Part shown: positions 2,117-48,227 of the stretch, in pieces
How the letters are laid out: each line of letters opens with the position of its first letter
Position numbering within the stretch: position 1 is the first letter of the stretch
Assembly: GCA_023819255.1 (NCBI GenBank)
Contig: JAMWBU010000003.1
Span: forward strand, 1 to 64,000
DNA from: Candidatus Omnitrophota bacterium
GTDB taxonomy: Bacteria; Ratteibacteria; UBA8468; B48-G9; DTJG01
Direction of reading: 5' to 3'
Length of the DNA: 64,000 nt
Translations under genes and position numbers: made by a program
The notes under the pieces: model-generated
Database searches by the model: none
What the model was told of the DNA's origin: nothing
The model's input: only the letters and a program-made list of their open reading frames with translations

Positions 2117-2959
2117 ATGGAATTTCAAAATATTATCATTTCTCTGGAGAAGTACTGGATTAATAAAGGATGTTTCCTGTGGCATCCTTATGCAACTGAA
2201 GTTGGCGCAGGGACGATGAATCCTGCGACATTTTTCGGAATTCTTGGAAAAAAGAAGTGGAATGTAGTTTATCTTGAGCCATCTCAAAGACCTGCGGACG
2301 CAAGATACGGTGAAAACCCAATACGACTCTATCAACACCACCAGATGCAGGTCATTCTGAAACCGCCCCCATCAGACATCCAGAATATTTATATACACAG
2401 CTTGAAAACTCTCGGAATAGATGTATCAAAGCATGATCTTCGTTTTATCGAAGATAACTGGGAAGCGCCAACGCTTGGAGCATGGGGTGTCGGATGGGAG
2501 GTATGGCTTGATGGCCTTGAGATAACCCAGTTCACATATATGCAGCAGGCAGGTGGCATAGATCTTGATCCTGTAAGCGTCGAAATCACTTATGGACTCG
2601 ACAGGATTGCATGCTTTCTTCAAGGAAAGCAATCTGTATTTGACATCGATTGGGGCTCAAACACAAACTATGGATTTCTGCATCAGGAAAGAGAAAGGCA
2701 GTATTCTTTTTTTGGTTTCAAGGAAGCAAATGTCGAACTACTCTGGATTTGTTTTGACGGCTTTGAAAAGGAGGCGAAATCACTCCTTGAGAAAAAACTT
2801 TTCTACCCTGCATATGATTATATTCTTAAACTGTCTCATATATTCAATCTTCTTGAAGCAAGATCTTCAATAAGCGTTGGCGAAAGAACACGAATTATAG
2901 CGAGAATAAGGGCGCTGGCAAATCTATGCGCACAACAATATATTGAAAGGGGAAATTGA
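2117..2959 (+). CDS. glyQ: Glycyl-tRNA synthetase alpha subunit
   Basis: This 280-residue protein is the catalytic alpha chain of bacterial alpha2beta2 glycyl-tRNA synthetase, which charges tRNA-Gly in the cytoplasm. It has full family length and near-invariant segments such as HPYATEVGAGTMNPATF (residues 23-39), LEPSQRPADARYGENP, EDNWEAPTLGAWGVGWEVW and ITYGLDRIACFLQG. The beta-subunit gene glyS, which normally follows, is not here. The stop overlaps the next start (TGATG), coupling glyQ to a URO-D family gene. The ATG lies 7 bases after an extended -10, so the message is probably leaderless. Confidence 0.97.
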   Translation: MEFQNIIISLEKYWINKGCFLWHPYATEVGAGTMNPATFFGILGKKKWNVVYLEPSQRPADARYGENPIRLYQHHQMQVILKPPPSDIQNIYIHSLKTLGIDVSKHDLRFIEDNWEAPTLGAWGVGWEVWLDGLEITQFTYMQQAGGIDLDPVSVEITYGLDRIACFLQGKQSVFDIDWGSNTNYGFLHQERERQYSFFGFKEANVELLWICFDGFEKEAKSLLEKKLFYPAYDYILKLSHIFNLLEARSSISVGERTRIIARIRALANLCAQQYIERGN

Positions 2960-3954
2960 TGACCGGGAAAGAACTCATAACAAGGGCTGTACTGTTTCAG
3001 GGACCGGAAAGGATTCCATATACACTGTCTGACGAATACGGAAGCGATATGATTGGAGTTGGCATTAAACCTGACCCGAACTGGAAACCATCATTTCCAC
3101 CAACCGATACAAAATGGGAAGACGAATGGCACTGCGTGTGGGAGCGACTTTCTGGAGACATTACAAAAGGCCAGGTTACAGGACATCCTTTGAAATCTTA
3201 TGAAATCTTTGACTCTTTCAAATGGCCGGATTTCAAAATTCCAGAAAGATATTCTGCAATGAAAGAAAAAATCGCTGGCAACAAAGAAGATAAATTTGTT
3301 CTCGCAAGCATTGATTTTTCACTGATGCACAGGCTTGAATACCTTCGTGGACATGAAAATGCCTGGACAGATCCATATCTTGAACCTGATAATCTTAGAA
3401 AACTTTTGCATAAACTTGCCGCTCTTGCGATTGACCAGATTGATATGGTCGCTGAAGCAGGCGCACATGGTATATGTTCAGCAGACGACCTTGGTTTTCA
3501 GGACAGACCAATGGTCTCGCCTGAAATATTCCATAATTTTTTTGCGCCATATTATAAGATGGCCTATCAACATGCCAGGAAGAAAAATATCCTGACATTT
3601 CTTCATTCCTGCGGATATATCATAGACCTGCTGGATGATTTAATCGCTGCAGGTTTGCAGGTAATACAGATGGACCAGCAGGAAAATATGGGCCTTGAAA
3701 ATCTTGGAAAAAGATTTGGCGGAAGATTGTGTTTCTGGTGTCCTGTTGATATTCAAAAAACGATGAATTATGGAACAGTTGATGATGTTAGAAATTACGC
3801 AAAAAAGCTCATTGACACGCTTGGAAGATATAATGGGGGTTTCATTGCAAAATGGTATGGCGCCCCTGACGCAGTGGGTCATACAAAAGAAAAAATAAAG
3901 GCAATGTGCGAAACATTTATTTCCTATGGCGCAAGTTTCTATAAGAAAACCTGA
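2959..3954 (+). CDS. Uroporphyrinogen decarboxylase (URO-D) family protein
   Basis: A 331-residue URO-D-fold protein, most like the MtaA/CmuA branch of cobalamin-dependent methyltransferases rather than the heme enzyme HemE. The segment FLHSCGYIIDLLDDLIAAG contains the H-x-C-G ligand motif expected for zinc, and the C-terminal barrel strand reads VDIQKTMNYGTVDDVR. The frame is open from a TTG at 2956, but the ATG at 2959, preceded by AAAGGGGAAA and sharing one base with the glyQ stop, is the likelier start. It is one of three URO-D paralogs in the window. No corrinoid protein or MtaB-type partner lies nearby, so the substrate (a methyl group or a sugar-derived acid) cannot be stated. Confidence 0.85.
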   Translation: MTGKELITRAVLFQGPERIPYTLSDEYGSDMIGVGIKPDPNWKPSFPPTDTKWEDEWHCVWERLSGDITKGQVTGHPLKSYEIFDSFKWPDFKIPERYSAMKEKIAGNKEDKFVLASIDFSLMHRLEYLRGHENAWTDPYLEPDNLRKLLHKLAALAIDQIDMVAEAGAHGICSADDLGFQDRPMVSPEIFHNFFAPYYKMAYQHARKKNILTFLHSCGYIIDLLDDLIAAGLQVIQMDQQENMGLENLGKRFGGRLCFWCPVDIQKTMNYGTVDDVRNYAKKLIDTLGRYNGGFIAKWYGAPDAVGHTKEKIKAMCETFISYGASFYKKT

Positions 3955-14550: not shown

Positions 14551-15636
14551 TTACGAAATAAGCTTGCTCACCATCTCAACCCTTTCAAAATCAGCGTTTG
14601 GAGGAACATTATCGCCCATTCCTAAAATAAAACACCTTCTCTCTTTCAAAGGGACTATCACCTCATTGATATATCTGACAAAATCCTCTCTTGTGCCTCC
14701 TTCTTCGCAGACCATCACTGATGGAATCCCACCCTGCAAAACAACCCTGCCGTCAAGAATATCCAAAGCTTCTTTCAGGGTAATCTTTGCCATAGGGGCA
14801 GTAACTATTGCCTCAACAACATCCAGTCCGCAGCCAGGAACAAGAGGAAGTAAATTTTCAGTTCTTCCACACCAGTGCCCTTCAAAAATCTTGCCTTTTT
14901 CAGAAAGGATTTTTTTGCATTCTTGATAGTAAGGAATCGCATATTCTTTGAATATCGCCGGGGTTATCATTACGCCGTCCATATTATCGCCTGTCGCAAT
15001 TACATCAGCGTATCCATCGGCAAGAATTTTAATTGCTTCAAGATACTTCTTAAAATAAACATCAAGCAGCCGGTCAACCTCTTCTCTGTAATCAAACCAG
15101 AGATAGAACGCATTTATGTAACCAGCGTCAATCTTTGCAAATTGAATAAAAGGCACTGAAAAACATCCATTGAGAACAACTCCATCATCTTTTGTTTCTT
15201 CAAGCGCCTTTATGGTTGACTGGTAATCAGGTTCGAAATATGTTGCCTCTGAAATATATTTCATAACCCGGATGTCATCGCGTGTCTTAATGAAATGCTC
15301 TGAAAGATGCTTTGAGCGATGTTCTCCTTCAGTTTTTTTATACATATTCCATACTGTGCCAGCCGGGGTGCTTATTTCTGTTATTGAGCCTTCTTCTGTA
15401 TCCTGGTGCTTGAATACCACACTTTTATCATAGACAGATTTTATTCCTGTTTGCCTGTTCCAGATGTATCCACCTATAGTTCTTACAATATCGTTTCTGC
15501 TCATACTCCTGTATTTTTCTGGTAGTGTACCTTCAGCAGTATTAACCTTTAACCAGTAGTCAAAATTAGGCGCCCAGACAAGGCAATCCACTTTTTCTTT
15601 TCTCAATGCTCTGAGATATCTTTCCCTTTTTGTCAT
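14551..15636 (-). CDS. URO-D family protein (second copy)
   Basis: A 361-residue URO-D-fold protein starting MTKRERYLRALRKEKVD, a typical opening. It has EGHWCGRTENLLPLVPGCG, again with the H-x-C-G ligand motif, and ILDGRVVLQGGIPSV near the C-terminus. The start at 15636 was chosen for GAGAGGAAAT just upstream, while the frame opens 17 codons earlier. It is transcribed alone, divergently from rpmA, with a long inverted repeat in the shared upstream region. As with the other copies, HemE function is unlikely and the substrate is unknown. Confidence 0.85.
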   Translation of the reverse strand: MTKRERYLRALRKEKVDCLVWAPNFDYWLKVNTAEGTLPEKYRSMSRNDIVRTIGGYIWNRQTGIKSVYDKSVVFKHQDTEEGSITEISTPAGTVWNMYKKTEGEHRSKHLSEHFIKTRDDIRVMKYISEATYFEPDYQSTIKALEETKDDGVVLNGCFSVPFIQFAKIDAGYINAFYLWFDYREEVDRLLDVYFKKYLEAIKILADGYADVIATGDNMDGVMITPAIFKEYAIPYYQECKKILSEKGKIFEGHWCGRTENLLPLVPGCGLDVVEAIVTAPMAKITLKEALDILDGRVVLQGGIPSVMVCEEGGTREDFVRYINEVIVPLKERRCFILGMGDNVPPNADFERVEMVSKLIS

Positions 15637-15660
15637 ATTTCCTCTCTGTTTTGTTTTTTT

Positions 15661-15666
15661 ATTATA
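15661..15666 (-). promoter_or_regulatory. -10 of the second URO-D gene
   Basis: TATAAT on the minus strand, about 25 bases before the start codon. The expected -35 position falls inside the inverted repeat at 15678-15715 and has no good -35 match, compatible with regulated expression. Confidence 0.5.
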
Positions 15667-15677
15667 CACGCAGCGTG

Positions 15678-15715
15678 AATCCTGCAAGATGAGAAATTCT
15701 CTGTCTTACAGGATT
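15678..15715. repeat. 38-base imperfect inverted repeat, candidate operator
   Basis: AATCCTG, one unpaired base, AAGA, then GAGAA-A-TTCTC at the centre, then TCTT, one unpaired base and CAGGATT. The arms match at nearly every position. It covers the -35 zone of the minus-strand URO-D gene and touches the rpmA -35 (15715-15720). It could be a protein-binding operator, or a hairpin in a longer transcript. Confidence 0.55.
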
Positions 15716-19624: not shown

Positions 19625-20776
19625 ATGACAGACAGGGAAAGAGTGCAAAAAATTTTACATTACCAGGATTATGACAGGATGCCGCTGGTACATTTTGGCT
19701 TCTGGAAAGAAACGTTACAGTTATGGGGATCCCGTGGATACATCAAAAAAGAAATTGCGGAAAAATGGGCAGACGGAAATCCTGCTGATTTTGAAATCGG
19801 TAAAGCACTTGGCTTTGATTTTAACTGGTATAATGTCTTCAAGCCTATACTGGGCTTATGGCCGCCTTTTGAACCCGAAATTATAGAACAACTTCCTGAT
19901 GGCACTAAAAAAATTCTAAATGGAGACGGAGTTATCGTATTGCAGAAACCTGGTGCTGGTTCTATTCCTGCTGATGTTGACCATCTTTTAAAAGACAGGG
20001 ATTCATGGGAAAAGCTTTATCTTCCAAAGTTACAATGGAGCAAAGACAGGGTAATGAAAGCGCCTGTTATCGCCGGAGAAAAAATTATCACTTTTGATCA
20101 GGGTGGAATTGATTATCTAAAAAATCAAAAAAGAGATTATCCTTATGGCATTTACTGCGGAAGCCTTTATGGATGGATACGAAACTGGCTCACAATGGAA
20201 GGCGCCTGTTATCTTCTTGTAGACGATGAACCATTGTTTGACGAAATTGTTGAGACAAACGCTGAGATCTGTTATCAGGCAGTCAAAACCACACTTGAAA
20301 CAGGTATAAAATTTGACTTCGCGCATTTCTGGGAAGACATCTGTTTCAAAAATGGTCCATTGATATCACCGCAGGTTTTCAGAAAAAAGATAGGGCCACA
20401 TTACAGAAGGATATGCGACCTTTTGAATAAATACGGCATAGATATTGTCAGCGTTGACTGTGACGGAAACATTGACGCGCTTGTTCCAGTATGGTTGGAA
20501 AACGGAGTAAATACAATGTTTCCAATAGAAGTTGGAACATGGAATGGAAACATAAGGCCATGGAGGGAAAAATACGGAAAAGATCTTCGTGGTGTTGGTG
20601 GAATGAACAAGGTTGTATTTTCAAAAGATAAAAAGGCAGTTGATGATGAAATAAAAAGGCTTTTAGAACTTATTGAGCTTAAAGGTTACATACCCTGTGT
20701 TGACCACAGAATTCCACCTGATGCAAAGTGGGAGCTTGTTGTCTATTACTGCCAGCAGATGCGCAGGTTAACTTAA
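19625..20776 (+). CDS. URO-D family protein (third copy, divergent)
   Basis: A 383-residue URO-D-fold protein beginning MTDRERVQKILHYQDYDRMP, the standard family opening. The usual H-x-C-G motif is replaced by VDCDGNIDALVPVWLENG, as in branches found next to glycosidase genes. The central FDFAHFWEDICFKNGPLISP is well conserved. It lies one base after GH78, whose last codons supply its ribosome-binding site (AGGAGAT), and 12 bases before the ceramidase-like gene. Altered metal ligands suggest a different chemistry from the other two copies, but the reaction is unknown. Confidence 0.83.
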   Translation: MTDRERVQKILHYQDYDRMPLVHFGFWKETLQLWGSRGYIKKEIAEKWADGNPADFEIGKALGFDFNWYNVFKPILGLWPPFEPEIIEQLPDGTKKILNGDGVIVLQKPGAGSIPADVDHLLKDRDSWEKLYLPKLQWSKDRVMKAPVIAGEKIITFDQGGIDYLKNQKRDYPYGIYCGSLYGWIRNWLTMEGACYLLVDDEPLFDEIVETNAEICYQAVKTTLETGIKFDFAHFWEDICFKNGPLISPQVFRKKIGPHYRRICDLLNKYGIDIVSVDCDGNIDALVPVWLENGVNTMFPIEVGTWNGNIRPWREKYGKDLRGVGGMNKVVFSKDKKAVDDEIKRLLELIELKGYIPCVDHRIPPDAKWELVVYYCQQMRRLT

Positions 20777-33713: not shown

Positions 33714-35996
33714 ATGCAACAGAAAATTATTTTAAAAAACCGCATTCATAGAAAGATAAAAAACAAGCCGATAAGTTATGGTGTTTGCTGGCCTGAGGCA
33801 GCTGTCTTCGATGAAAACAAAATAGCGCTTTTTGACGAAAACGGGAAACAGATTCCTGCTGGAATTAAAGTTCTCAACAGATGGGCTGATGGAAGCATCC
33901 AGTGGACTCTACTGGATTTCAGCATTGACATTGAAGAATCATCAACCAGGACAATCACCGCAAAAATTATGGAAGATGTTTCTGCAACTATGTCAGAAAA
34001 TCCTGTAAGTATTATTTCAAATGGCCAACATATCATAATTGGTAATGGTCTGGTGGAACTGGTTGTCTCATCAGAAAAAGGGAAACTGATAGAAAGCTGG
34101 ATTGTAGAAAAAAAAGAACTGATGGAGCCAGATGGTTTTGATATCACATTTAAGGACAAAAATGGCAGAAAGTTTTCAGCAAAAAATGGAAACAGAAAAA
34201 TCAGCATAGAACACTCAAATCCCATTAGATGCGTTGTAAGAGTTGATGGAAGACACAGCTGCGGAAAAAAAGAAATGCTTGACTATTTTTTAAGATTTGA
34301 AATTTTTTCAGGCAGAAAGGATGTCAAAATTACTTACAGTTTCAGGAACAGAGAACCAGTTGTTCCTGGAATTACCATTAATTCCCTTTATATGGAATTT
34401 AAATCATCTGTTAAGAAAGGTAAAAAGTGCTTTGCCGCAAGAAATCTGACAAGATATTACAAACCTGGTTTTCTCAGAATCGATGAAGATCTGTGTATTG
34501 TTGCTTCTGATACTCCGGATTTAGAAAATTATGAAAAAACACACCAGAAGTCAAACAGCGGGCTTGTCTTTGTGAAAGACGAAAGGGTATTGCACGACCC
34601 TGTGGAAGAAAAGCCCTGGTTTATGAGGAATGTGAAATTCAGGATGAGCGTTGGAAACCGCCTTGTTTTCCCGTACATTGCGACAGTTGGTGAAAATTGC
34701 GGAGTTATTGCGCATTTTCTGGCAATGAATACCCTTTATCCAAAGGAACTGAAAATTAAAAAGAACATCTTTTCATTCGGAATATGGCCTGTGTGGACAA
34801 AAAATTTATTCATCACTCAGGGAGCAGGAAGGTCCCACTCATTTATAATCTCAGCCATAGATCCATCTCTTTCTGATATGGAAATCCAGGACAATTACCT
34901 GAACTGGGAAGTTCCAATGAATGCCGGATGGCCTTCTCAGGATTCTGTTGAAATAATTTGCGATATTGAACATGTAAGAAAAAGCAAGGTGTTTGCGATT
35001 GATATGCTGCCTGAATACGATATGAAAAACCGACCCCTTTTTGAAAAAAAGGTGCTCAATTCCTGGATCGGGATTGCATATGGAAGTCTTGGCTGGACAG
35101 AAGAAGTTATACCGATGCAGCCGATTGGATTCTGGGATTACGGAGATAATGGAGCAAACAACGAAGAAATGTTCGGGCATGTTTATTTCCAGAATTATTT
35201 CAGAACAGGAAACTGGACATGCGCTGAAAATGGCATATCAATAGCAAGACACATTCTTGAGGTTGACTTTGTTGATTTCAGCATTGATAAACTCCAAAAC
35301 GGCGGAATGGTAGCGCACTGTCTCAATCATAATGATGGCGCTGTGTATCCGTCCCATATGTGGTTCACTGAACTATTGTTTGCCTATGCTCTGACAGGCG
35401 ATGGCGAATTCAAGCGTGCAACATTAAGAATCTGTGAGAACCTGCTTTTATGGATCAATGAGTATTTCTGGATAATATCGGGAGATCACAGAGAATCAGG
35501 CCAGCCGATGATAAATCTAACATGGTGTTATGAATTCAACAGAGACCAGAGATACCTGAAGGCGTGTGAAAAAATAATAAAGGAAAACCTGATGGTTCAG
35601 GCAAAAAAATATGGCAGGATGATTACTCCAAAACCTTCCTCAATGCCGATTAAACTGGTAAGGTATGGCGATTATGCAAGCTGGGAAGGAATGTTCTGGT
35701 ACTGGAAGATAACAAAAGACAGAAAAGTTAAGGAATTTATGCTGAACCAGTTAGAGTGGCGGCTTTCAACAGAGTTTATGACTCCTTTTTCCTATCACAG
35801 GGTAAGTGACATCAACCCGGCTGCCTATGCGTATTATATGAGCGGAGACAGAAGCTGGTTCGACAGAATATCAAAATTCATAAAGGCATCTTTCAGGTGC
35901 GCAAATTGGCCTATTGGCTGGATACATTCAATGTATGCCCTCAAGATTGCTTTTGACCTGAAAATTATCAGCGATGATGATATTATTCCGCAGTAG
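33714..35996 (+). CDS. RIFT-barrel / exo-rhamnogalacturonan lyase-like protein
   Basis: A 760-residue protein. The N-terminal segment GVCWPEAAVFDENKIALFDE followed by VLNRWADGSIQWTLLDF matches the RIFT-barrel domain that opens exo-rhamnogalacturonan lyase (PcRGLX/YetA-like, PL26-related) proteins. A central beta-sandwich covers about 90-400 and an alpha/alpha toroid-like region covers about 440-740 (for example MVAHCLNHNDGAVYPSHMW). The family cleaves rhamnogalacturonan I by beta-elimination, which would complement the GH78 rhamnosidase. Catalytic residues cannot be assigned by eye. There is no signal peptide. The ribosome-binding site is AAGGAGAAAAG. The stop directly abuts the stop of the convergent DUF4838 gene. 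Confidence 0.7.
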   Translation: MQQKIILKNRIHRKIKNKPISYGVCWPEAAVFDENKIALFDENGKQIPAGIKVLNRWADGSIQWTLLDFSIDIEESSTRTITAKIMEDVSATMSENPVSIISNGQHIIIGNGLVELVVSSEKGKLIESWIVEKKELMEPDGFDITFKDKNGRKFSAKNGNRKISIEHSNPIRCVVRVDGRHSCGKKEMLDYFLRFEIFSGRKDVKITYSFRNREPVVPGITINSLYMEFKSSVKKGKKCFAARNLTRYYKPGFLRIDEDLCIVASDTPDLENYEKTHQKSNSGLVFVKDERVLHDPVEEKPWFMRNVKFRMSVGNRLVFPYIATVGENCGVIAHFLAMNTLYPKELKIKKNIFSFGIWPVWTKNLFITQGAGRSHSFIISAIDPSLSDMEIQDNYLNWEVPMNAGWPSQDSVEIICDIEHVRKSKVFAIDMLPEYDMKNRPLFEKKVLNSWIGIAYGSLGWTEEVIPMQPIGFWDYGDNGANNEEMFGHVYFQNYFRTGNWTCAENGISIARHILEVDFVDFSIDKLQNGGMVAHCLNHNDGAVYPSHMWFTELLFAYALTGDGEFKRATLRICENLLLWINEYFWIISGDHRESGQPMINLTWCYEFNRDQRYLKACEKIIKENLMVQAKKYGRMITPKPSSMPIKLVRYGDYASWEGMFWYWKITKDRKVKEFMLNQLEWRLSTEFMTPFSYHRVSDINPAAYAYYMSGDRSWFDRISKFIKASFRCANWPIGWIHSMYALKIAFDLKIISDDDIIPQ

Positions 35997-38000
35997 TCAA
36001 TCCCTGTACCACAGGTTATGAAACTTTGCGTTTGTTGCATCCTTGAGAAGTTTTATCACACTAAGGATGCCTCTTCTGTCGGATTCAGAGCCAAGGATAT
36101 GTCTGTAAAGGATACCGCGCCACTTTTTATAATTTTTAAGAAGCGGATGATTGAAAAGTTTTTGAATTTTATCGTCAATTTTTGCATGCTCTGCAAGAAG
36201 AGAAAAGCACGCATCGATATTATCGTTTTTCAGCTCATTTTCAATCTTTTTCTCAATCTCTCTTGTCTGCCAGAACAGATGACCGAACTCAAGAAGAACT
36301 CTCTGATCTTTTATTCTCTTTTTTATCTTTTTTGAATCTGCCATTTTAAGCGCAAGATTTAACCTATCAAGGCAACTTCTGTATGTTTGAGTATCAAAAA
36401 CCTGAAGTATTTCTGGTATGCCCATACCAAATCTCACATTTCTTGCTGAATTTTCAAGGATTTCATAGTACTGGACCATTGGTTCTGCCGCATTGTGGAA
36501 AAGCGCTCGACAGTACTCGCCTGCAAGATCTTTCCATGTTGCCTTTTCATCCCACATTGCGCGGCTTGTAACATACATAGATAGGCCATAGGAAGTCCAT
36601 ATGATAGGAGAATTAAACCACTGAGAACCGTATCCTTCAAAACCCTGACTTTTGAGAAACCTGATTGTTCTCATACAGGACTTGCTCACTGGAAAAAGCA
36701 TACCCATTGATCCAAGCGTGCTGGTAAGATAATCGTAATAATAAAATGGTCCTTTGATATGTTTTCTCCACCTGGCAAAAATCTGTGGATATATTGTGTA
36801 TTTTTTTGCATCCTTCTCATAGGTTGAAACTGTTGTCTGGCTAAGAGTCCTTCTCAGTTCTTCGTCTGACGGAGGATCATCAAGCGCTCTGTCCCATTTC
36901 CTTTCATAGATGCAAAAAATAACCCCGAGATTTTCAGGAAGCTGAAGGTTAAAATCCTCAGGCAGTTCTGTATGACCCGCATAACTGCCAATCTCAATGA
37001 TCACATCAGGAAATTCTTTTGCAACGGCTCTTGCTATATCAGCAGCAAAAAGAACATAGTTTTTTGTGTACTGAAGCTGCTTTGTTGTTATTCCCTGCCA
37101 TGGCTCCTCAACATTTCTGCAATTTTCACAAAAGCAGGGGCTCTGACCGTCATTGGGGAAAAATGAGAATCTTTTCACATAGGGGTGTTTTCTGAAAAAA
37201 TTCAGAAAATAATCAATGAAGATTTTTTTAACATCTGGATGAGTCCAGCATATTCCAAAAGAATCCCTTCCATTTTTCATTTTGTGAAGGGCGTCTGGTT
37301 TCTGTTCAGGATTGTATGCAAAATATTCAGGATGTTGATCAAAGTATTTGCTTGGTGGCATAATGGATTCACAGGCATGACCGCCGACATAAAGCCCTGA
37401 TTCTCCGCGCAACTCAACTGCTTGTTTTGCCCAGAATCTTCCTGTTGTTTCTGAAAGCAACTCCTTTTCGCCCTGAAATTCCGGGCTCTTTTTACCCTCT
37501 GGCTTAACTGAATGGCTCATCCCAATCTTTGCGCACCAGTCAATCATCTTCAGATCTTCATCACCAAGCCCAATCATAAATCTTGTTTTCATAAATGGCC
37601 TGTGATAATAAAACTCTTCTGAAATATCTACCGTATTCAATTCAGGAATATATTCAATATCCGGCCAGGCAAAAATACAGCCAAGCCGATGAAGAAAATC
37701 GTAAACACCCAGAAGCACTCCCCTTTTATCTCCGCCAACAATAAAAAATCTCTGATTGTCCGTAAATCTCATAACTGATTCTGGTTCCATATTTCTGGAT
37801 TTTTCAAATTCAGCGTGGGTCTTTTCAGCAATGCATATCGCAGGGCCGGATTCTGGAAACCCGCGAAGAATCTGAATTTTTACCCCTGAGATTTTTTTGA
37901 TGTATTTTTGAAGCTGTTTTGCGCTGAAAACTTCGACAGGAAAGGGTTTTTTGGGAAAACAAATGCTGCACAGAGCCAATCCATTTTCAACGATTTTCAT
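35997..38000 (-). CDS. DUF4838 protein with glycosidase-type N-terminal domain
   Basis: A 667-residue protein. Residues 1-120 look like the alpha/beta accessory domain that precedes GH20, GH67 and GH84 barrels (VEVFSAKQLQKYIKKISG, FFIVGGDKRGVLLGVYDFLH, GCIFAWPDIEYIP). The following TIM-barrel-like part, with FPNDGQSPCFCENCRNVEEP, DVIIEIGSYAGHTELPEDF and GPFYYYDYLTSTLG, is DUF4838, common in Lentisphaerae and relatives and of unproven activity. It ends with a helical region. There is no signal peptide. It is coupled to the DHODH-like gene (ATGA) and has its own AAGGAGATG ribosome-binding site. It is probably a hexosidase- or uronidase-like enzyme. Confidence 0.8.
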   Translation of the reverse strand: MKIVENGLALCSICFPKKPFPVEVFSAKQLQKYIKKISGVKIQILRGFPESGPAICIAEKTHAEFEKSRNMEPESVMRFTDNQRFFIVGGDKRGVLLGVYDFLHRLGCIFAWPDIEYIPELNTVDISEEFYYHRPFMKTRFMIGLGDEDLKMIDWCAKIGMSHSVKPEGKKSPEFQGEKELLSETTGRFWAKQAVELRGESGLYVGGHACESIMPPSKYFDQHPEYFAYNPEQKPDALHKMKNGRDSFGICWTHPDVKKIFIDYFLNFFRKHPYVKRFSFFPNDGQSPCFCENCRNVEEPWQGITTKQLQYTKNYVLFAADIARAVAKEFPDVIIEIGSYAGHTELPEDFNLQLPENLGVIFCIYERKWDRALDDPPSDEELRRTLSQTTVSTYEKDAKKYTIYPQIFARWRKHIKGPFYYYDYLTSTLGSMGMLFPVSKSCMRTIRFLKSQGFEGYGSQWFNSPIIWTSYGLSMYVTSRAMWDEKATWKDLAGEYCRALFHNAAEPMVQYYEILENSARNVRFGMGIPEILQVFDTQTYRSCLDRLNLALKMADSKKIKKRIKDQRVLLEFGHLFWQTREIEKKIENELKNDNIDACFSLLAEHAKIDDKIQKLFNHPLLKNYKKWRGILYRHILGSESDRRGILSVIKLLKDATNAKFHNLWYRD

Positions 38001-39079
38001 AACATCTCCTTTTTCTTCAACAAGGTTGCAAGATAGCCATCTTCAATGTCCAGCATAAGCTTATAAAAGACCTGCTGAAACCTGTTTCCTTTTTTTTCAA
38101 ATGGCTTTTTTACCTTTCCCATAAGATAGCTTAGAATCTGAACATTTTCCGCTCCAGCACATATATAATCAAAAATATGTTTCCCTTTGTATATTCCGCC
38201 TGTTGCTGAAACAGAACAATTTTGAAAAAGACAATGAACCCTTTCGACCTGCTGCAGGTTCCTGATCCTGAGTTCTTCTCCTCCATGCGCACAACCAAAC
38301 TCTTTTTTATAAATTCTGTTGGCAATAACAACACCATCTGCATTGCCAGCAAGGGAAGATTCAACCATTTTTATCTGAAAATCAATTCCGTAGTCAAGGT
38401 TCATAATCTTGGGGAAAACAGAGATATCCTTAAAGGATTTTTTCAATATTTCTGGAATTTTTCTGTACCAGCGAAGGATTGTTTTTTGATTCATCAAATG
38501 GTCCTGCTCTTTTAAAAAAGGGCAGAAATCAATCTCAAAAAACCTGTAACCGAGATCATAAAGCTTCTCTGTTGTGTAAATCCACTCTTCTTCGATAAAA
38601 TCCTGATCAAAAGAAGGCAGATGCCCTAAAAGAGATGCAATAATCTGAAAATCAGGGCTTTTTATTTTTGATGCTTCTTTTGCAAACTCAAGATATTCTT
38701 CAAGATTCCTTGTGTCAAGCCCGCCATCCCAGTGTATGATTGGAAATTCTCCATTATCATCAGTTTCATCATAAACTGTTTCAACCTTTGTCGGCTTTTT
38801 TCTCAGTATTTTCATAGAACATCTCTGGTTTTTATCTTCTGCCACAACTGACTTCAAAACACATCCGGCAAAACCTGCCTGCTTGATAAGATGCAACTGT
38901 AAAATCGATGTTGTCATCTGGCCTGGCGCAACAATAACTGGATTTTTTAGCTCTAAATTTCCATATTTTGCCCATATATCAAGATTTAATTCATTTTTCA
39001 CAATGTCTGAAAAATCCTCCGGTATATCAGAAAAAAGAAAATGCTGGCTCAATTCTGAAAGCTTTTTGTCGCTGCTCAT
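37997..39079 (-). CDS. Dihydroorotate-dehydrogenase-like TIM-barrel flavoprotein
   Basis: A 360-residue protein of the DHODH/dihydropyrimidine dehydrogenase barrel group. The FMN-binding entry reads GNLELKNPVIVAPGQMTTS, and the phosphate-binding end reads VSATGGIYKGKHIFDYICAG with ENVQI. The middle is divergent and the usual catalytic Cys/Ser loop is not recognisable, so pyrimidine synthesis is not assured. It overlaps the DapA-like gene and the DUF4838 gene by four bases each. In this operon a reductive or oxidative step on a sugar-derived keto acid is a possible role, which is inference. Confidence 0.7.
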   Translation of the reverse strand: MSSDKKLSELSQHFLFSDIPEDFSDIVKNELNLDIWAKYGNLELKNPVIVAPGQMTTSILQLHLIKQAGFAGCVLKSVVAEDKNQRCSMKILRKKPTKVETVYDETDDNGEFPIIHWDGGLDTRNLEEYLEFAKEASKIKSPDFQIIASLLGHLPSFDQDFIEEEWIYTTEKLYDLGYRFFEIDFCPFLKEQDHLMNQKTILRWYRKIPEILKKSFKDISVFPKIMNLDYGIDFQIKMVESSLAGNADGVVIANRIYKKEFGCAHGGEELRIRNLQQVERVHCLFQNCSVSATGGIYKGKHIFDYICAGAENVQILSYLMGKVKKPFEKKGNRFQQVFYKLMLDIEDGYLATLLKKKEML

Positions 39080-39984
39080 AAAGGAATTTCTCTCAGGATT
39101 TTATCTATTGCCTTTTTCTCTCTTTCGTCAATCTGCATCAGGGGCGGTTGAACACAGGTATTTTTAAATATCTTCTGTTTTTTAAGGACATATTTCATTC
39201 TTACCCTGTAATTCCTTACAGGAGGAGAAAAACAAAACTCGCACAATTTTGCAAGCGGCTCAAATGTTTTCATCGCCTCGATGAATTTTTTTTCAAGGGC
39301 AAGGTTAATTGCTGCCGCCTGGATATCAGTAAAAACTGAACCAAAACCAATAAGCGCGCCCTGAGCGCCAAGAATGAATGATTCTATGATAAAGTTGTCA
39401 TTTCCAGTAAGGAGAGTAATTTTTTCTGGCAGGGACTCAAGAAGATCTTTGGTTTTTCTGAATTTCAACGCGTCAAAGGTTGCTTCCTTTATTGCAACAA
39501 CATTATCAATCTGAGCAAGTTGAGCAAGTGTTTCGTCTGAATACTGAACACCTCCAAGGTCCTCCTGAAGCTGGAAAAGAATAACAGGCACCCCTATTTT
39601 TGACAGCGACAGATGATAGTTAAGCGCTGCCAGGTCTATGCCTTTTGCGCCCCTGAAGGCAAAATGAGGAAAAACAAGAAAATAATCCGCGCCACAATCC
39701 TTATATCTTTTTCCGTATTCGACTGCCTGTTGCGTGGATTGCGCTCCAAGTCCGCAAACAACAGGAATATTTTTTGCCTTTCTTTTCACAATCTTTAATA
39801 TTCTTTCTCTTTCCGATTGCGAAAGGAAAGCGCCTTCACCTGCGTCCGTATTTACTGCGATTGAGGCAATTTGTGCAGAACAAACAATTTCAAGATATTG
39901 TTCAAAAATATCCTGCTCGAGCCTTAATTGTTCGTCAAAAGGAATGACAATTGCCGGAATAAGTCCATATAAACCCTTATCCAT
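39076..39984 (-). CDS. Dihydrodipicolinate synthase (DapA/NanA) family protein
   Basis: A 302-residue class I (Schiff-base) aldolase/lyase barrel. The lysine is K166 in NVVAIKEATFD. The substrate-loop segment reads NTDAGEGAFLS instead of the usual GTTGE form, and the conserved tyrosine of YNxP is phenylalanine (F137 in VILFQLQED), so it is not a standard lysine-pathway enzyme. Family members cleave or form 2-keto acids, sugar acids and sialic acid. The ATG at 39984 follows GAGGGA, with an ATG six codons earlier as an alternative. It is the second gene of the isomerase-DapA-DHODH-DUF4838 run. Confidence 0.85.
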   Translation of the reverse strand: MDKGLYGLIPAIVIPFDEQLRLEQDIFEQYLEIVCSAQIASIAVNTDAGEGAFLSQSERERILKIVKRKAKNIPVVCGLGAQSTQQAVEYGKRYKDCGADYFLVFPHFAFRGAKGIDLAALNYHLSLSKIGVPVILFQLQEDLGGVQYSDETLAQLAQIDNVVAIKEATFDALKFRKTKDLLESLPEKITLLTGNDNFIIESFILGAQGALIGFGSVFTDIQAAAINLALEKKFIEAMKTFEPLAKLCEFCFSPPVRNYRVRMKYVLKKQKIFKNTCVQPPLMQIDEREKKAIDKILREIPL

Positions 39985-40011
39985 TTTTGTTCCCTCTTTC
40001 ATTGTTGAAAC

Positions 40012-40824
40012 CTATAATTGTTTCAGGATTCTGTGCAGAAAGTTAATATCCTGCTCAAATTTTTGCTCTGAAGGCCTTTTATCAAGAGCTTCAAGTGAAA
40101 GAAAACCATCAAATTTTGCCATTTTCAGCGCCTTTATTATGGCAGGCCAGTCCAGATCTCCTTCTTCAAGAGAGCCAAACTCCATTTTATATTTTCTACC
40201 AGAAACTGCTCCTTCGGAAGAATTTGACTGCCTGCAGTTTTTAATATGGACATGGGCAAGATATTTCCCGAAAACGCTTATTGCATACTCTGGCCTTGTA
40301 AAGCCTTCCACAGCAGAATTCCCGGGGTCAAAAATAATTCCAATGTGCCTTTCCGGAAGTCCATCAACAAGGTCCCTGCACGCGTTTGGTGTGCAACATA
40401 TATTGTTGTGGTGCTGTTCAATATTTAATCTCACATCGAATTTCTCTGCCTCAGGTAAAACAGTTTCTTCAAGCCACTTTCTTTGTTTACTCATCAATTC
40501 TTCAAAAGGAATACTTCCATCAAAGCCATAGCTGTGGCATCTGACATTTCTTGTCTTCAGGATTGTGGCTGCCTCAAAAATCGAGCTGATGTAATCTTTC
40601 GTCTCATTAAACTTAAAGTATGGAGCAATCCCTGCGCACAGAAGACCGGATCCATCCATCATTTTTGCAACATGATCTGCTGATTGTTTCAGGTTCGTCA
40701 GGTCAATATGAGCGTTTTCCCTGCACCACCACTCAATTCCATCACAATGATACTTTTTCGCTAAATTTATTACTTCAGAAACTTTCCTGTCAGACGCTGA
40801 TAAAGAATATACTGAAATCTTCAT
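40012..40824 (-). CDS. Sugar phosphate isomerase/epimerase (xylose-isomerase-like barrel)
   Basis: A 270-residue AP-endonuclease-2/xylose-isomerase-like TIM barrel. Metal-binding residues are visible in LNIEQHHNN, GIIFDPGNSAVEG, LAHVHIKNCRQS and FLSLEALDKRP (Glu, Asp, His, Glu order), as in inosose isomerases and ketose 3-epimerases. The ribosome-binding site is GGGGAAAGGAA. It is the first gene of a four-gene minus-strand operon whose later members overlap by four bases. It follows the glutamate dehydrogenase gene by 45 bases and may be co-transcribed with it. The sugar is unknown. Confidence 0.85.
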   Translation of the reverse strand: MKISVYSLSASDRKVSEVINLAKKYHCDGIEWWCRENAHIDLTNLKQSADHVAKMMDGSGLLCAGIAPYFKFNETKDYISSIFEAATILKTRNVRCHSYGFDGSIPFEELMSKQRKWLEETVLPEAEKFDVRLNIEQHHNNICCTPNACRDLVDGLPERHIGIIFDPGNSAVEGFTRPEYAISVFGKYLAHVHIKNCRQSNSSEGAVSGRKYKMEFGSLEEGDLDWPAIIKALKMAKFDGFLSLEALDKRPSEQKFEQDINFLHRILKQL

Positions 40825-44634: not shown

Positions 44635-46878
44635 CTATTTAACAACCAGTAGTTCAATGTTTTTCAAATCAAGACAGAGCCATTCATTTGAAATTGAAAA
44701 ATTCTTGTTTTTGAAAAATCTCTTTGCTTTTTTATAGCCAGGCAACTTTATCTTAACACTGCTTTGTTTTCTGCCATAATTTGCCAGAACAAGATATTTT
44801 TTTCCATCAAAGCCCGTTATTCCAATTGCTTTTACAACGCAATCTGTCTCTATTTCAGGTATCCAGAATCCCTTCCTGAAAAATCGCTGCGTTTCCCTGC
44901 GATTTTTTCCAGCAAGAACAACGCAACATATGTCAAAGATGCTACTATCCTTTCTAACAGCAATTTTTTCTCTGTATGGATAACATATCTCATCCGCAAA
45001 AAGGCCTGTGCTGATTGCTTCTGCTTCAAACTGATTCAGATTCAGACCTGCCTGCCTTTTTGCAGGTCTGAAAATTGTAAAAGAGTCTCCACCGTAAACA
45101 GAAACAATGCCAAGGCGGTTATCAACATTAAGCCAACCTGATTGAATCCTAATTATTTCCTGTTTTTCAGATGGCCCTTTTATTTTCTTATTGCCGCCTT
45201 CAAACCAGTAGGTTCTTTCACATCCATTGAAAATGTCGTTTGGTATGTTCAAAAATAGGCCTTTCGCCCGATATAAAAATGTTTCCGGCATAATGGCAAC
45301 GGATCTCTGCATCACAATGCATGTTGTGTCATCAGGCAGAGCCACAAAAACTATGTTGTTTTTTGCGAGAACTTCTGGTTTGTGTCCCTCTGAAAGAAAA
45401 GATTCTGAACATACTTTTGTTTCTCCGTAAACAGCAAATCCATTATCAAAGACAAACTCTTTGTGATAAACCAAAGATTGAAAATTTATTCTTCCATAGC
45501 CGCCAATAACGCCAGCCAGATTGTGTCTCCACTCCGCAAAATCGCTTCTATTTGAAGGAACACAAAGCCCCTGAGGCGGCTGCGCTGCCAACCAGCACCA
45601 GGAAGCAATCCTGTTTTTCCCACGGACAAAACAGGCGCCGTGATGCCTGTCATACCACTGCTTTATGCCGGAAATCTTTATCGGCTTTCTCTGGTTGAAA
45701 TGACTAAAAATTCTTTTCCAGTATGCCGCCATTGACAGTGTGCAGGCCCTGTCTGTTTCAAGGCGGGCATAATAGATTGGCGCCCTTTCATAAAGATCCT
45801 GACATCTTATGGAAAGAAAGGAGCCATCTTTATTGGCATCCATTTCTTTTCTTATTATTTCAAGCCAGCCCTTTTCAAAATTTTCACAGTCACTATCACC
45901 ATATAAATCTCTGATCAAAAGCCAGACAGGTATTGCATAGTCCTGACAATAGCAGTACCTGATTCTGGTATCTCCGCCTATCCTGCATAATCTTCCATCA
46001 GAAAATGTAAAACTTTTCACAAGTTTCCACAACCTGTCAATGTGTCTGTAAATAAAATCCGGCGGCTTGATATTTGCTTTTTTGCAGGCAAAGTGAAGCA
46101 TTGCAATGTTAGACAGGCATATCACCATATAACCAGTATTCAGGTATCCGTGATGATTGAGAGCAAAAGAAGGAAAGAAATTATCTCCCCTGTACCAGTA
46201 AGAAACAGGTTTTCCATTGACAGGTTCTTTGCATTTTGCGTCAGAGGAAATTGATATTCCGTTTATAATAAAGGTTGTAGCCTTCTCAATGTATTCTTTT
46301 TTCCTTTTTACATCAGGAAACAACAAGACTGTCCTGAGAAGATGAGCGCCATTCCAGATATTGCTTTCAGGATGGTTGTGAATGGTTTTCCCTGCAAGAA
46401 CCTCACCTTTTCTTTCCGGCATATCCCTGAAATAATCGTCAACGAGCCAGTCAGATTCTGAAACCATCACCTTTTCAAGCAATTTCCGGTCATAATCTGT
46501 CAGGTATTCTTTAATTGCGTCTATGCCATGCATCATTCTTTCAATTCCAAGCGCGCTTATCCAGGTGTGTCCCCATTTTGTTCCATCAAGGCAAAAAAAG
46601 CTTCCCTGTATATGGGTTTCAAGATTGAATCGAAGCATTTTCAGCGCGTGATATAGAATTTCATCTCTTTTCATCTGACAGTTTTTCTCGTCAAGGTCAG
46701 GGTCTACCGCGCATACCGCAAAAGCCGAAAAAGCCTTCTGATGGGTTTGAACTGCCCAGTTATTGTAGCCAGTGCCAAAATATTCAAGTTCAGGCCTACC
46801 CCCGACTTGGCGAACAAGGCCCCTGGCAAACCCCAACCAGCGCTCAATCAATTTCATATAGTCTTTGCTGGACACCAT
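44635..46878 (-). CDS. Large alpha/alpha-barrel and beta-sandwich protein, polysaccharide lyase or hydrolase-like
   Basis: A 747-residue protein with no signal peptide. The N-terminal half is helical, with toroid-like segments (FGTGYNNWAVQTHQKAFSAF, NHPESNIWNGAHLLRTVLLF, RGDNFFPSFALNHHGYLNTG) that resemble alginate/heparin-lyase-like and GH88/105-like barrels. The C-terminal half is beta-rich, with IKQWYDRHHGACFVRGKNRI and a terminal small beta domain ending NIELLVVK, as in PL8/PL21-type lyases. No family is certain. The ATG at 46878 was chosen because AGAGG precedes it, although the frame is open a further 85 codons upstream. It is divergent from a DegT gene. Confidence 0.7.
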   Translation of the reverse strand: MVSSKDYMKLIERWLGFARGLVRQVGGRPELEYFGTGYNNWAVQTHQKAFSAFAVCAVDPDLDEKNCQMKRDEILYHALKMLRFNLETHIQGSFFCLDGTKWGHTWISALGIERMMHGIDAIKEYLTDYDRKLLEKVMVSESDWLVDDYFRDMPERKGEVLAGKTIHNHPESNIWNGAHLLRTVLLFPDVKRKKEYIEKATTFIINGISISSDAKCKEPVNGKPVSYWYRGDNFFPSFALNHHGYLNTGYMVICLSNIAMLHFACKKANIKPPDFIYRHIDRLWKLVKSFTFSDGRLCRIGGDTRIRYCYCQDYAIPVWLLIRDLYGDSDCENFEKGWLEIIRKEMDANKDGSFLSIRCQDLYERAPIYYARLETDRACTLSMAAYWKRIFSHFNQRKPIKISGIKQWYDRHHGACFVRGKNRIASWCWLAAQPPQGLCVPSNRSDFAEWRHNLAGVIGGYGRINFQSLVYHKEFVFDNGFAVYGETKVCSESFLSEGHKPEVLAKNNIVFVALPDDTTCIVMQRSVAIMPETFLYRAKGLFLNIPNDIFNGCERTYWFEGGNKKIKGPSEKQEIIRIQSGWLNVDNRLGIVSVYGGDSFTIFRPAKRQAGLNLNQFEAEAISTGLFADEICYPYREKIAVRKDSSIFDICCVVLAGKNRRETQRFFRKGFWIPEIETDCVVKAIGITGFDGKKYLVLANYGRKQSSVKIKLPGYKKAKRFFKNKNFSISNEWLCLDLKNIELLVVK

Positions 46879-46916
46879 TTTTTCCTCTTCCAACATAATA
46901 ACATAAGAATAATATG

Positions 46917-46925
46917 TGTTATAAT
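46917..46925 (+). promoter_or_regulatory. Extended -10 promoter of the second DegT gene
   Basis: TGTTATAAT, identical to the glyQ element, but here about 21 bases before the ATG at 46947, leaving a leader with AGGGAGG (46936-46942). Confidence 0.55.
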
Positions 46926-46946
46926 CTGTCAAAGCAGGGAGGACAA

Positions 46947-48227
46947 ATGCCAGAGCTTGCAATAAATGGCGGGAAGAAAGCAGTAAGGAAGAAACCGAAA
47001 AAATCAGGGTTATTTGATGAAATGTTAAAAGAACAGGAAACGCTTGTTTTGCAGCTATTGAGAAAAAGAGAAACTTCTCAATCTCCCTGTGTAAAAGAAC
47101 TTGAGGAAAGATGGGCGGATTATGTTGGAGCAAAATATTGCCTTGCTATGAACAATGGCACTGCGACCCTCCACAGTGCGTTTTTCTCTGTGATAGAGGA
47201 ACCTGGGGATGAAATAATAACAAGCGTACACACCTGGCATCTTGGAGTAACCCCGATTATATGCGCTGGCGGAATACCGATTTTTTGCGACATTGACCCT
47301 CTGAGTTTGAATATCAATCCTTCTGAAATTGAAGAAAAGATCACATCAAGAACAAAGGCAATCTGCGTAACACACTGTTATGGCCATCCTGCTGATATGG
47401 ACAGGATAAATGAAATCGCAGAAAAACACAATCTTGCTGTAATTGAAGATGCTTCACATTCGCATGGATGTGAATACAAAGGAAGAAAAACAGGTTCTCT
47501 CGGCGACATAGGGTGTTTCAGCTTGCAGGGAAGCAAGCTGATGACAGGAGGTGAGGCAGGTCTTTTTACCACCAACAGCAAGAATTATTACCAGCAGGCA
47601 ATAATTCTTGGCCATTATGAAAGGTTTTCTTGTCTTTCATCGACATATGACAGATACAAAGGAAATGCTGAAACCATTCCTTTTATGAATGCTGGCTTCA
47701 AGTATAGAATCCATCCATTTGCTGCTGCGATGGCTCTTGTTGAACTGAAATACCTTGATGAAAGAAATGCCTTGCAGATGAAAAACTGCTGGTACATAAA
47801 CAATGGCCTTGACAGAATTGAAGGTTTTGCAGGAGCGTATGTTGCGCCTTATGTCACAAGGCTTGGCTGGCTGAATTTCTTGATTAGATGCGACCTTGGG
47901 TACTTCAAGGAAATACCAAGAGCCAGAATTATTGAAGCGTTGCGCGCAGAAGGCGTGGAGGCGGCATCCGGAAGACCTGGTTATATTCCACTTGTACGCC
48001 AGAACCTGCTTAATGACAGGGAAAATCATCCAGCAAGAGTGCTCTGGTATCATTTTCTTAAAAACCATCCTGAATACAAGATTCAGGATTATCCTGCGGC
48101 AGAAAAGGTTCTTTTTGAAAGAATATCAATCAATCCTCTGAGAGATATCGAGTTTGACCAGGAATACCTTGAACAGATTCTTGACGCCTTCAGAAAGGTA
48201 TCAAAAAACAAAAAGGATTTGAAATGA
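46947..48227 (+). CDS. DegT/DnrJ/EryC1/StrS-family PLP aminotransferase (second copy)
   Basis: A 426-residue PLP enzyme. It opens MPELAINGGKKAVRKK and has MNNGTATLHSAFF, THCYGHPADMDRI, EDASHSHGCEYKGRKTG and the Schiff-base lysine in LQGSKLMTGGEAG. It shares the family and length of the 3957-5237 copy but is clearly distinct in sequence. The ATG was chosen for the AGGGAGG ribosome-binding site. Its stop overlaps the start of an amidohydrolase gene by four bases. Together with the divergent lyase-like gene this forms a small sugar-metabolism locus. The substrate is not known. Confidence 0.9.
   Translation: MPELAINGGKKAVRKKPKKSGLFDEMLKEQETLVLQLLRKRETSQSPCVKELEERWADYVGAKYCLAMNNGTATLHSAFFSVIEEPGDEIITSVHTWHLGVTPIICAGGIPIFCDIDPLSLNINPSEIEEKITSRTKAICVTHCYGHPADMDRINEIAEKHNLAVIEDASHSHGCEYKGRKTGSLGDIGCFSLQGSKLMTGGEAGLFTTNSKNYYQQAIILGHYERFSCLSSTYDRYKGNAETIPFMNAGFKYRIHPFAAAMALVELKYLDERNALQMKNCWYINNGLDRIEGFAGAYVAPYVTRLGWLNFLIRCDLGYFKEIPRARIIEALRAEGVEAASGRPGYIPLVRQNLLNDRENHPARVLWYHFLKNHPEYKIQDYPAAEKVLFERISINPLRDIEFDQEYLEQILDAFRKVSKNKKDLK

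Follow-up and report, generated by a model that had tools for sequence, protein, structure and literature searches.

The window analysed here is a stretch of 64,000 nucleotides from a Candidatus Omnitrophota bacterium, and it carries on its minus strand four closely spaced genes for an isomerase-like protein, a DapA-like protein (DapAL), a DHODH-like protein (DHODHL) and a DUF4838 protein. The locus raises the question of which of these proteins act together, and on what. Automatic annotation would label the two central proteins dihydrodipicolinate synthase and dihydroorotate dehydrogenase, and such mislabels would count towards lysine and pyrimidine synthesis in an uncultured phylum known from such counts alone. 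If the two form one module, they would offer a testable two-enzyme reaction and a new DHODH/DPD flavoenzyme subfamily, with the cysteine and without the pyrimidine site.

Gene layout and selection

The four open reading frames are real genes under purifying selection (Table 1), with dN/dS of 0.05–0.16 over all four in the comparisons with unsaturated dS. The preliminary description had placed four genes with two four-base overlaps here, and this layout was recovered, with all four on the minus strand (overlaps at 39076–39079 between DapAL and DHODHL, and at 37997–38000 between DHODHL and DUF4838). Its spacing of about nine bases after the first gene is that of the longest open reading frame; relatives of DapAL begin at Met7 (position 39984; alignment of relatives), the likely start, which makes some 27 bases the likelier gap. 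The same gene order, whose absence outside this strain had been named as a result that would refute the earlier reading, was found in other genomes of the genus, within which DHODHL orthologues share 64–72% identity (near-identical G006 set apart).

Table 1 Features of the locus, with Pfam matches; scores in bits, model cut-offs in parentheses.
Feature	Coordinates	Strand	Match
Isomerase-like protein, xylose-isomerase-like TIM barrel	40012..40824	-	PF01261 87.7 bits (cut-off 31.1)
DapA-like protein (DapAL), core gene 1	39076..40002	-	PF00701 109.3 bits (cut-off 22.1)
DHODH-like protein (DHODHL), core gene 2, 360 residues	37997..39079	-	PF01180 30.2 bits (cut-off 27)
DUF4838 protein	35997..38000	-	PF16126 122.4 bits (cut-off 26.6)
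PcRGLX-like protein, PL26-type exo-rhamnogalacturonan-lyase-like	33714..35996	+	PF19501 + PF21345

Distribution of the DapAL/DHODHL pair

The conserved unit is two genes, DapAL and DHODHL, the sole part of the locus that is conserved across genera. Among the 35 genomes of the phylum examined, DapAL is present in 11 and DHODHL in 15, and DHODHL accompanies DapAL in all 11 DapAL-bearing genomes; the chance of this co-occurrence is 3e-6 in a statistic that ignores kinship. The two genes are adjacent in 10 of the 11; in the remaining genome, contig ends separate them. Their order is reversed in one genus (G010), with the four-base overlap kept. Since 4 of the 15 genomes with DHODHL have no DapAL, DHODHL can act alone or with another partner.

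A single genome scan with two short peptide patterns, by which distant relatives would be missed, returned 13 loci, all matching genomes of the phylum search, and no DHODHL outside the phylum. No relative was found in a scan of viral contigs, and a plasmid search with DHODHL gave four records, with 22.9% identity in the one covering >80% of the query.

It is quite improbable that the pair is a biosynthetic or housekeeping module (serving, say, a compound related to lysine or pyridine) that lies near polysaccharide genes by coincidence: the distribution is patchy (11/35), catabolic neighbours accompany the pair in g1, g2 and f5, the DHDPS residues are lost (see below), and the genome carries other DapA-family genes. 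Of the three f3 genomes that have the pair, two (G023 and G025) would suit such a role: in them it follows housekeeping genes (lysS and murJ, named by eye) and no sugar gene was seen beside it; a DapA-type condensation followed by flavin oxidation would also be chemically reasonable for a dihydropyridine.

The isomerase-like gene and DUF4838 as neighbours

The isomerase-like protein is a member of PF01261, with a score above the cut-off and conserved metal-ligand residues; E136, D166, H191/H193 and E245, which we take to be these ligands, are invariant in 7/7. A PDB sequence search gave no match at 1e-6 and a weak match to IolE (E 0.0027). The gene is intact and adjacent to the pair in 5 of 7 g1 genomes, interrupted by two TAA in G004 and unlinked to the pair in G005. 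Relatives also occur elsewhere without the pair, in G018 and in the more distant G002, where the gene lies upstream of an apparent threonine synthase and a phosphoglycerate mutase (named by eye). The DUF4838 protein, whose score places it in PF16126, follows the pair in genus g1 only, in all seven pair-holding genomes (cut by a contig end in one); the orthologue of the sister genus (G010) is on another contig, unlinked. Searches of plasmids and of PDB sequences with the DUF4838 protein gave no match. In f3 and g2, the pair is present without either gene.

These distributions bear on the earlier reading, in which the four proteins act one after another and together make up a complete pathway for an unusual sugar acid. 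All four genes are codirectional and close here, several genomes of the genus share their order, and carbohydrate-active genes lie beside them. The part of that reading that stands is the DapAL/DHODHL pair, conserved across genera; the complete pathway is decidedly unlikely, with the isomerase-like gene unlinked, interrupted or found apart from the pair in the genomes named above, the DUF4838 orthologue of G010 unlinked, and the pair able to occur without both. The isomerase-like gene and DUF4838 were accordingly rejected as obligate parts of the module. The isomerase-like gene is probably co-transcribed with the pair here, as a separable neighbour.

The DapA-like protein

DapAL belongs to the DHDPS/NAL superfamily (PF00701) by score, fold and Schiff-base lysine. 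Its predicted model (pLDDT 89.7) has the DHDPS fold and matches 3si9_A with Z 38.0 and an rmsd of 1.8 over 289 residues. As had been described, the Schiff-base lysine is retained (K172, invariant in 11/11 relatives) and the GTTGE and YNxP motifs are absent (motif check, 11/11). The aldolase Thr/Tyr proton relay is lost in 11/11, with T44-T45 replaced by D53-A/C54 and Y133 by F143. DapAL thus shares the fold and the lysine of DapA and N-acetylneuraminate lyase and differs from them in the absence of Thr44-Thr45, Tyr133, Tyr107 and Arg138. It is not DapA proper, as it scores 120.5 bits with TIGR00674, whose cut-off is 206, and lacks the Thr/Tyr relay, and it is below the cut-off for 5-keto-4-deoxyglucarate dehydratase (TIGR03249; 52.1 against 374 bits).

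A DHDPS fold without the family tyrosine is also described for L-2-keto-3-deoxyarabinonate dehydratase (KdaD), which, according to PMC9795676 and PMC13398020, has a catalytic Glu at lysine +2 and a Gln at the tyrosine position. The corresponding residues of DapAL are Ala174 (9/9 aligned, no Glu there) and Phe143. A KdaD-type dehydratase by known residues was rejected on the replacement of this Glu by A174, the position being that given in PMC9795676.

The DH​ODH-like protein

DHODHL is confidently predicted to have a DHODH/DPD-type fold: the model (pLDDT 91.6) matches dihydropyrimidine dehydrogenase (1gt8_C) with Z 32.3 and rmsd 3.0 over 303 residues, and DHODHs with Z of about 27–28. Membership of the PF01180 DHO_dh superfamily follows from this fold and from a score above the cut-off. 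The protein had been described as lacking a recognisable catalytic loop, which is contradicted by the alignments and was rejected: a loop E(I/V)DF-CP (EIDF-CP here) is present in 15/15 relatives and aligns, in profile alignments, on the catalytic-cysteine loops of PyrD (ELNISCPN) and PreA (ECNFSCPQ). The profile matches are E 3.7e-9 to PreA and E 1.1e-6 to the phylum's PyrD; in both, C186 lies on the catalytic Cys, D184 on the substrate Asn, and C186-P187 on C-P. The orotate-binding asparagines (N..CPN) are not kept, the first being D184 and the second F188 or other residues. Further invariant residues (13/13 aligned) are K76, K224, N254, R255, G294-G295, R93 and R124; the register of K224 in the profile alignments is uncertain by about two residues. 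DHODHL is predicted, from residue conservation and fold, to be an FMN oxidoreductase.

The FMN domain of dihydropyrimidine dehydrogenase and PreA give the best fold match, with the Cys-Pro of the catalytic loop aligned; DHODHL differs in having Asp for the loop Asn, a loop one residue shorter and no Fe-S domains (a Pfam scan of its 360 residues found no ferredoxin or C-terminal 4Fe-4S domain). With class 1 PyrD it shares PF01180, the FMN-site glycines, the Lys and Asn positions and the catalytic Cys; it differs in the SCPN Asn, replaced by F/Y/G/A/S/T, and in the substrate loop, where an insert with IIHWDG..D.RNL is found and the NxxG type is not seen. The highest-scoring NCBIfam model is PRK07565 (NF005741; 55.8 against a cut-off of 303 bits), with which DHODHL has in common Asn-Arg-(I/F)-Tyr, a motif that follows the same strand in both; the member compared (Bacteroides finegoldii) is without the Cys-Pro loop, unlike DHODHL.

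A clear match to PyrD had been named as the result that would overturn the earlier reading, and none was obtained: scores are far below the PyrD cut-offs (31.4 against 301 bits for NF002702; 30.3 against 270 for TIGR01037), a separate PyrD is encoded in the same genome, and DHODHL was rejected as the organism's PyrD. The PreA model (NF006183) is likewise below cut-off (23.2 against 335 bits).

These scores and the separate PyrD, together with the relay lost in 11/11 DapAL and the retention of the pair across genera with rearranged order, make it rather unlikely that both proteins are ordinary paralogues, DapAL a slightly altered 2-keto-3-deoxy-sugar-acid aldolase and DHODHL a pyrimidine-type dehydrogenase in an accidental neighbourhood. 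That reading draws on the textbook folds of both proteins, on dapA as still the best-scoring model for DapAL, and on backbone amides, which can hold substrate carboxylates in its family (PMC13398020). Canonical KDPG aldolase (PF01081) was found in only 3 of 8 g1 genomes, and a replacement would therefore be useful.

Proposed reaction and genomic context

The pairing and the altered active-site signatures suggest an undescribed two-step reaction. We tentatively propose, as a reading with a little less than an even chance, a two-enzyme module in which DapAL, as a Schiff-base enzyme, and DHODHL, as an FMN enzyme, would act on an acidic non-pyrimidine metabolite, polysaccharide-derived in this genus. 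We infer the FMN, the chemistry, its direction and the substrate of both proteins as follows. DapAL would carry out dehydration/hydration or another lysine-imine lyase reaction, more likely than aldolase chemistry because the Thr/Tyr/Tyr proton relay is gone. DHODHL would most likely add or remove hydrogen across a C=C that neighbours a carbonyl, because the catalytic cysteine is kept and the pyrimidine-binding residues are lost; its substrate would be acidic, not a pyrimidine, and made or consumed by DapAL, which may either feed DHODHL or be fed by it. Points against this module are the four genomes with DHODHL and no DapAL, the housekeeping surroundings of the pair in G023 and G025, the uncertain register of K224 and, at A174, the missing Glu of KdaD.

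In a more specific and very doubtful form of this module, DapAL would dehydrate a keto sugar or sugar acid via the lysine imine, and DHODHL would saturate the enone with FMN and its cysteine, in a step akin to that of dihydropyrimidine dehydrogenase on uracil. If true, the product would be deoxygenated and an anaerobe would gain an electron sink, by a flavin-based route of sugar deoxygenation for which we know of no described counterpart.

The PcRGLX-like gene converges on the DUF4838 gene with zero bases between them, a layout found in 6/6 g1 contigs reaching that far. In this genus, the module may have been recruited to polysaccharide breakdown, and its substrate there is probably polysaccharide-derived, because glycosidase-like DUF4838 and rhamnogalacturonan-lyase-like genes adjoin it. 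Catabolic neighbours are GH78, sulfatase and PL26-like genes in the window, a glycerate kinase gene that follows the pair in G010 and an alcohol dehydrogenase gene that follows DHODHL in G031. The link to sugar acids is one of context only: glycoside hydrolases, the sulfatase, the PL26-like gene and this one relative's glycerate kinase. In G010 the pair is preceded by a transporter-like DUF6785/6784 gene, which was rejected as a specific clue because such a gene is present in 31 of 35 genomes.

Gene organization in the window

Four minus-strand genes lie where the preliminary description placed them, with 4-base overlaps, as it also had it, at DapAL/DHODHL and at DHODHL/DUF4838. The gap between the first two genes, described as nine bases, is 9 bases by the longest open reading frame; because relatives of DapAL start at Met7 of that frame, 27 bases is more probable. 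The DUF4838 gene is met head-on, with 0 bases between, by a convergent PcRGLX-like gene (exo-rhamnogalacturonan-lyase-like, PL26 type), an arrangement found in all six contigs of the window's genus that reach that far. Left of the four genes, the window encodes a GH78-type rhamnosidase, a sulfatase, Gfo/Idh oxidoreductases and a class II aldolase. The draft genome comprises 78 contigs and 2.0 Mb. Elsewhere in the window, three proteins belong to the URO-D family, with matches of varying strength (2956-3954, 14551-15687, 19625-20776), and an 832-residue open reading frame (44635-47133) has no Pfam match at 1e-3.

Four-gene locus of the window (TIM, xylose-isomerase-like TIM barrel; DapAL, DapA-like protein; DHODHL, DHODH-like protein)
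Feature	Position	Strand	Pfam
TIM, isomerase-like TIM barrel	40012-40824	minus	PF01261
DapAL, DapA-like protein	39076-40002	minus	PF00701
DHODHL, DHODH-like protein	37997-39079	minus	PF01180
DUF4838 protein	35997-38000	minus	PF16126

Distribution of the DapAL-DHODHL pair

DapAL and DHODHL form a real and conserved pair, built from known folds. In the phylum sample (35 genomes, the window's own included), DapAL is a clear subfamily, since 11 genomes match its profile at E < 1e-150 and all further matches are at 2.8e-30 or weaker. DHODHL matches (E <= 1e-8) occur in 15 genomes: all 11 with DapAL (chance under independent placement 3.3e-6, kinship ignored) and four lacking it (G001, G002, G030, G031). 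Gene maps place the two genes side by side in 10/11; in G004 both are at contig ends. Their gene trees are compatible in the major groups. A DHODHL profile scan of genome contigs gave 13 loci, none outside genomes of the 35-genome set, and the sole plasmid match covering >80% of the DHODHL query was only 22.9% identical. No description of the pair was found in the literature searched.

The order DapAL-DHODHL-DUF4838 holds in 7/7 genomes of the window's genus that have the pair (G003 cut in DUF4838; G006 split within DHODHL; G004 split between DapAL and DHODHL). G006, whose proteins (loci L021, L022) are 98.4-100% identical to the window's, is thus very close to the window's genome, though counted as another species. 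In G010, DHODHL comes first, followed by DapAL and glycerate kinase; the overlaps are here too of 4 bases, and a DUF6785/6784 gene lies upstream. Transporter-like proteins of the DUF6785/6784 type occur in 31/35 phylum genomes (e.g. G020:C56), which have as many as 5 each, and in 0/14 control genomes. In group f3 the pair overlaps by 26 bases in three genomes; two of the three maps extend to apparent lysyl-tRNA synthetase and MurJ genes, assigned by eye.

TIM and DUF4838 are separable neighbours of the pair, and the proposal that all four genes make up one pathway for an unusual sugar acid was too broad. TIM is intact and adjoins DapAL in five of the seven genomes of the genus with the pair; its frame has two stops in G004, and in G005 it is on another contig than the pair, away from the contig end. 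Beside TIM in G005 (L078, 995-7104), four opposite-strand open reading frames replace the DapAL block of other genomes, the block being on another contig. TIM relatives in G018 and G002 (58% and 52% identity) have no adjacent pair, that of G002 lying upstream of apparent threonine synthase and phosphoglycerate mutase genes (assigned by eye). In G010, the DUF4838 orthologue and the pair are on different contigs.

Fold and residues of DapAL

The predicted model (pLDDT 89.7) has the DHDPS fold (Z 38.0, rmsd 1.8, 289 residues). K172 aligns on the Schiff-base lysine in a profile alignment with solved DHDPS, as the preliminary description had read it. Unlike solved DHDPS (residues in E. coli numbering), DapAL has D53-A54 for Thr44-Thr45 and F143 for Tyr133, and has lost the Tyr107 and Arg138 residues. 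All 11 DapAL proteins carry N(T/S)D(A/C)GE, F replacing the tyrosine, and AIKEA. According to two papers (PMC9795676, PMC13398020), the Tyr-Thr/Ser-Tyr relay is the aldolase proton shuttle of the family, one dehydratase of the family has lost the tyrosine, and backbone amides can hold the substrate carboxylate; a 2-oxo acid substrate would thus be compatible with the loss of Thr45. The catalytic Glu of the tyrosine-less dehydratase is absent from DapAL.

Fold and residues of DHODHL

The best structural match of the predicted model (pLDDT 91.6) is the FMN domain of dihydropyrimidine dehydrogenase (1gt8_C, Z 32.3, rmsd 3.0, 303 residues); DHODHs come next (Z about 27-28). EIDF-CP falls on ELNISCPN when DHODHL is aligned by profile with the PyrD proteins of the phylum (E 1.1e-6), and on ECNFSCPQ when it is aligned with E. 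coli PreA (E 3.7e-9). The catalytic Cys and Pro are retained; Asp replaces the preceding Asn, the loop is shorter by one residue, and the Asn found after Cys-Pro in PyrD is lost. The catalytic loop, E(I/V)DFCP, is recognisable, contrary to the first reading, in 15/15 genomes (frame cut by contig ends in G006 and G004). All 13 aligned proteins share Lys76, Lys224 (register uncertain by about two residues), Asn254, the GG of T-G-G and other positions of the FMN site, as well as Arg93, Arg124 and Arg255; the invariance of these arginines suggests an acidic substrate. All NCBIfam scores are far under cut-off. A second, separate PF01180 protein of the window's genome (G000:C71, 205 bits) is likely its PyrD.

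Possible role of the pair

DapAL is predicted to be a relay-less lysine-imine enzyme and DHODHL a cysteine-bearing FMN enzyme; the conserved pair would most simply act in two steps on a single metabolite, reacting at a C=C adjacent to a carbonyl. Glycerate kinase in G010, an alcohol dehydrogenase downstream of DHODHL in G031 and the polysaccharide genes of the window's genus point to a catabolic role; the f3 setting gives no such pointer.

A 391-residue DapA-like protein (L030, 5459-6634; weak PF00701 score) has GVHTTQFEI replacing GTTGE; its gene is 4 kb away from that of DHODHL, and the genome has no DapAL. On Natrinema versiforme plasmid pNVE414 (L062, 6947-8871), behind an ABC transporter, a DapA-like gene whose product, like DapAL, has the G-N-D motif shares a 4-base overlap with an LLM-class flavin-dependent oxidoreductase gene, an independent pairing of a DapA-like protein with a flavin enzyme.
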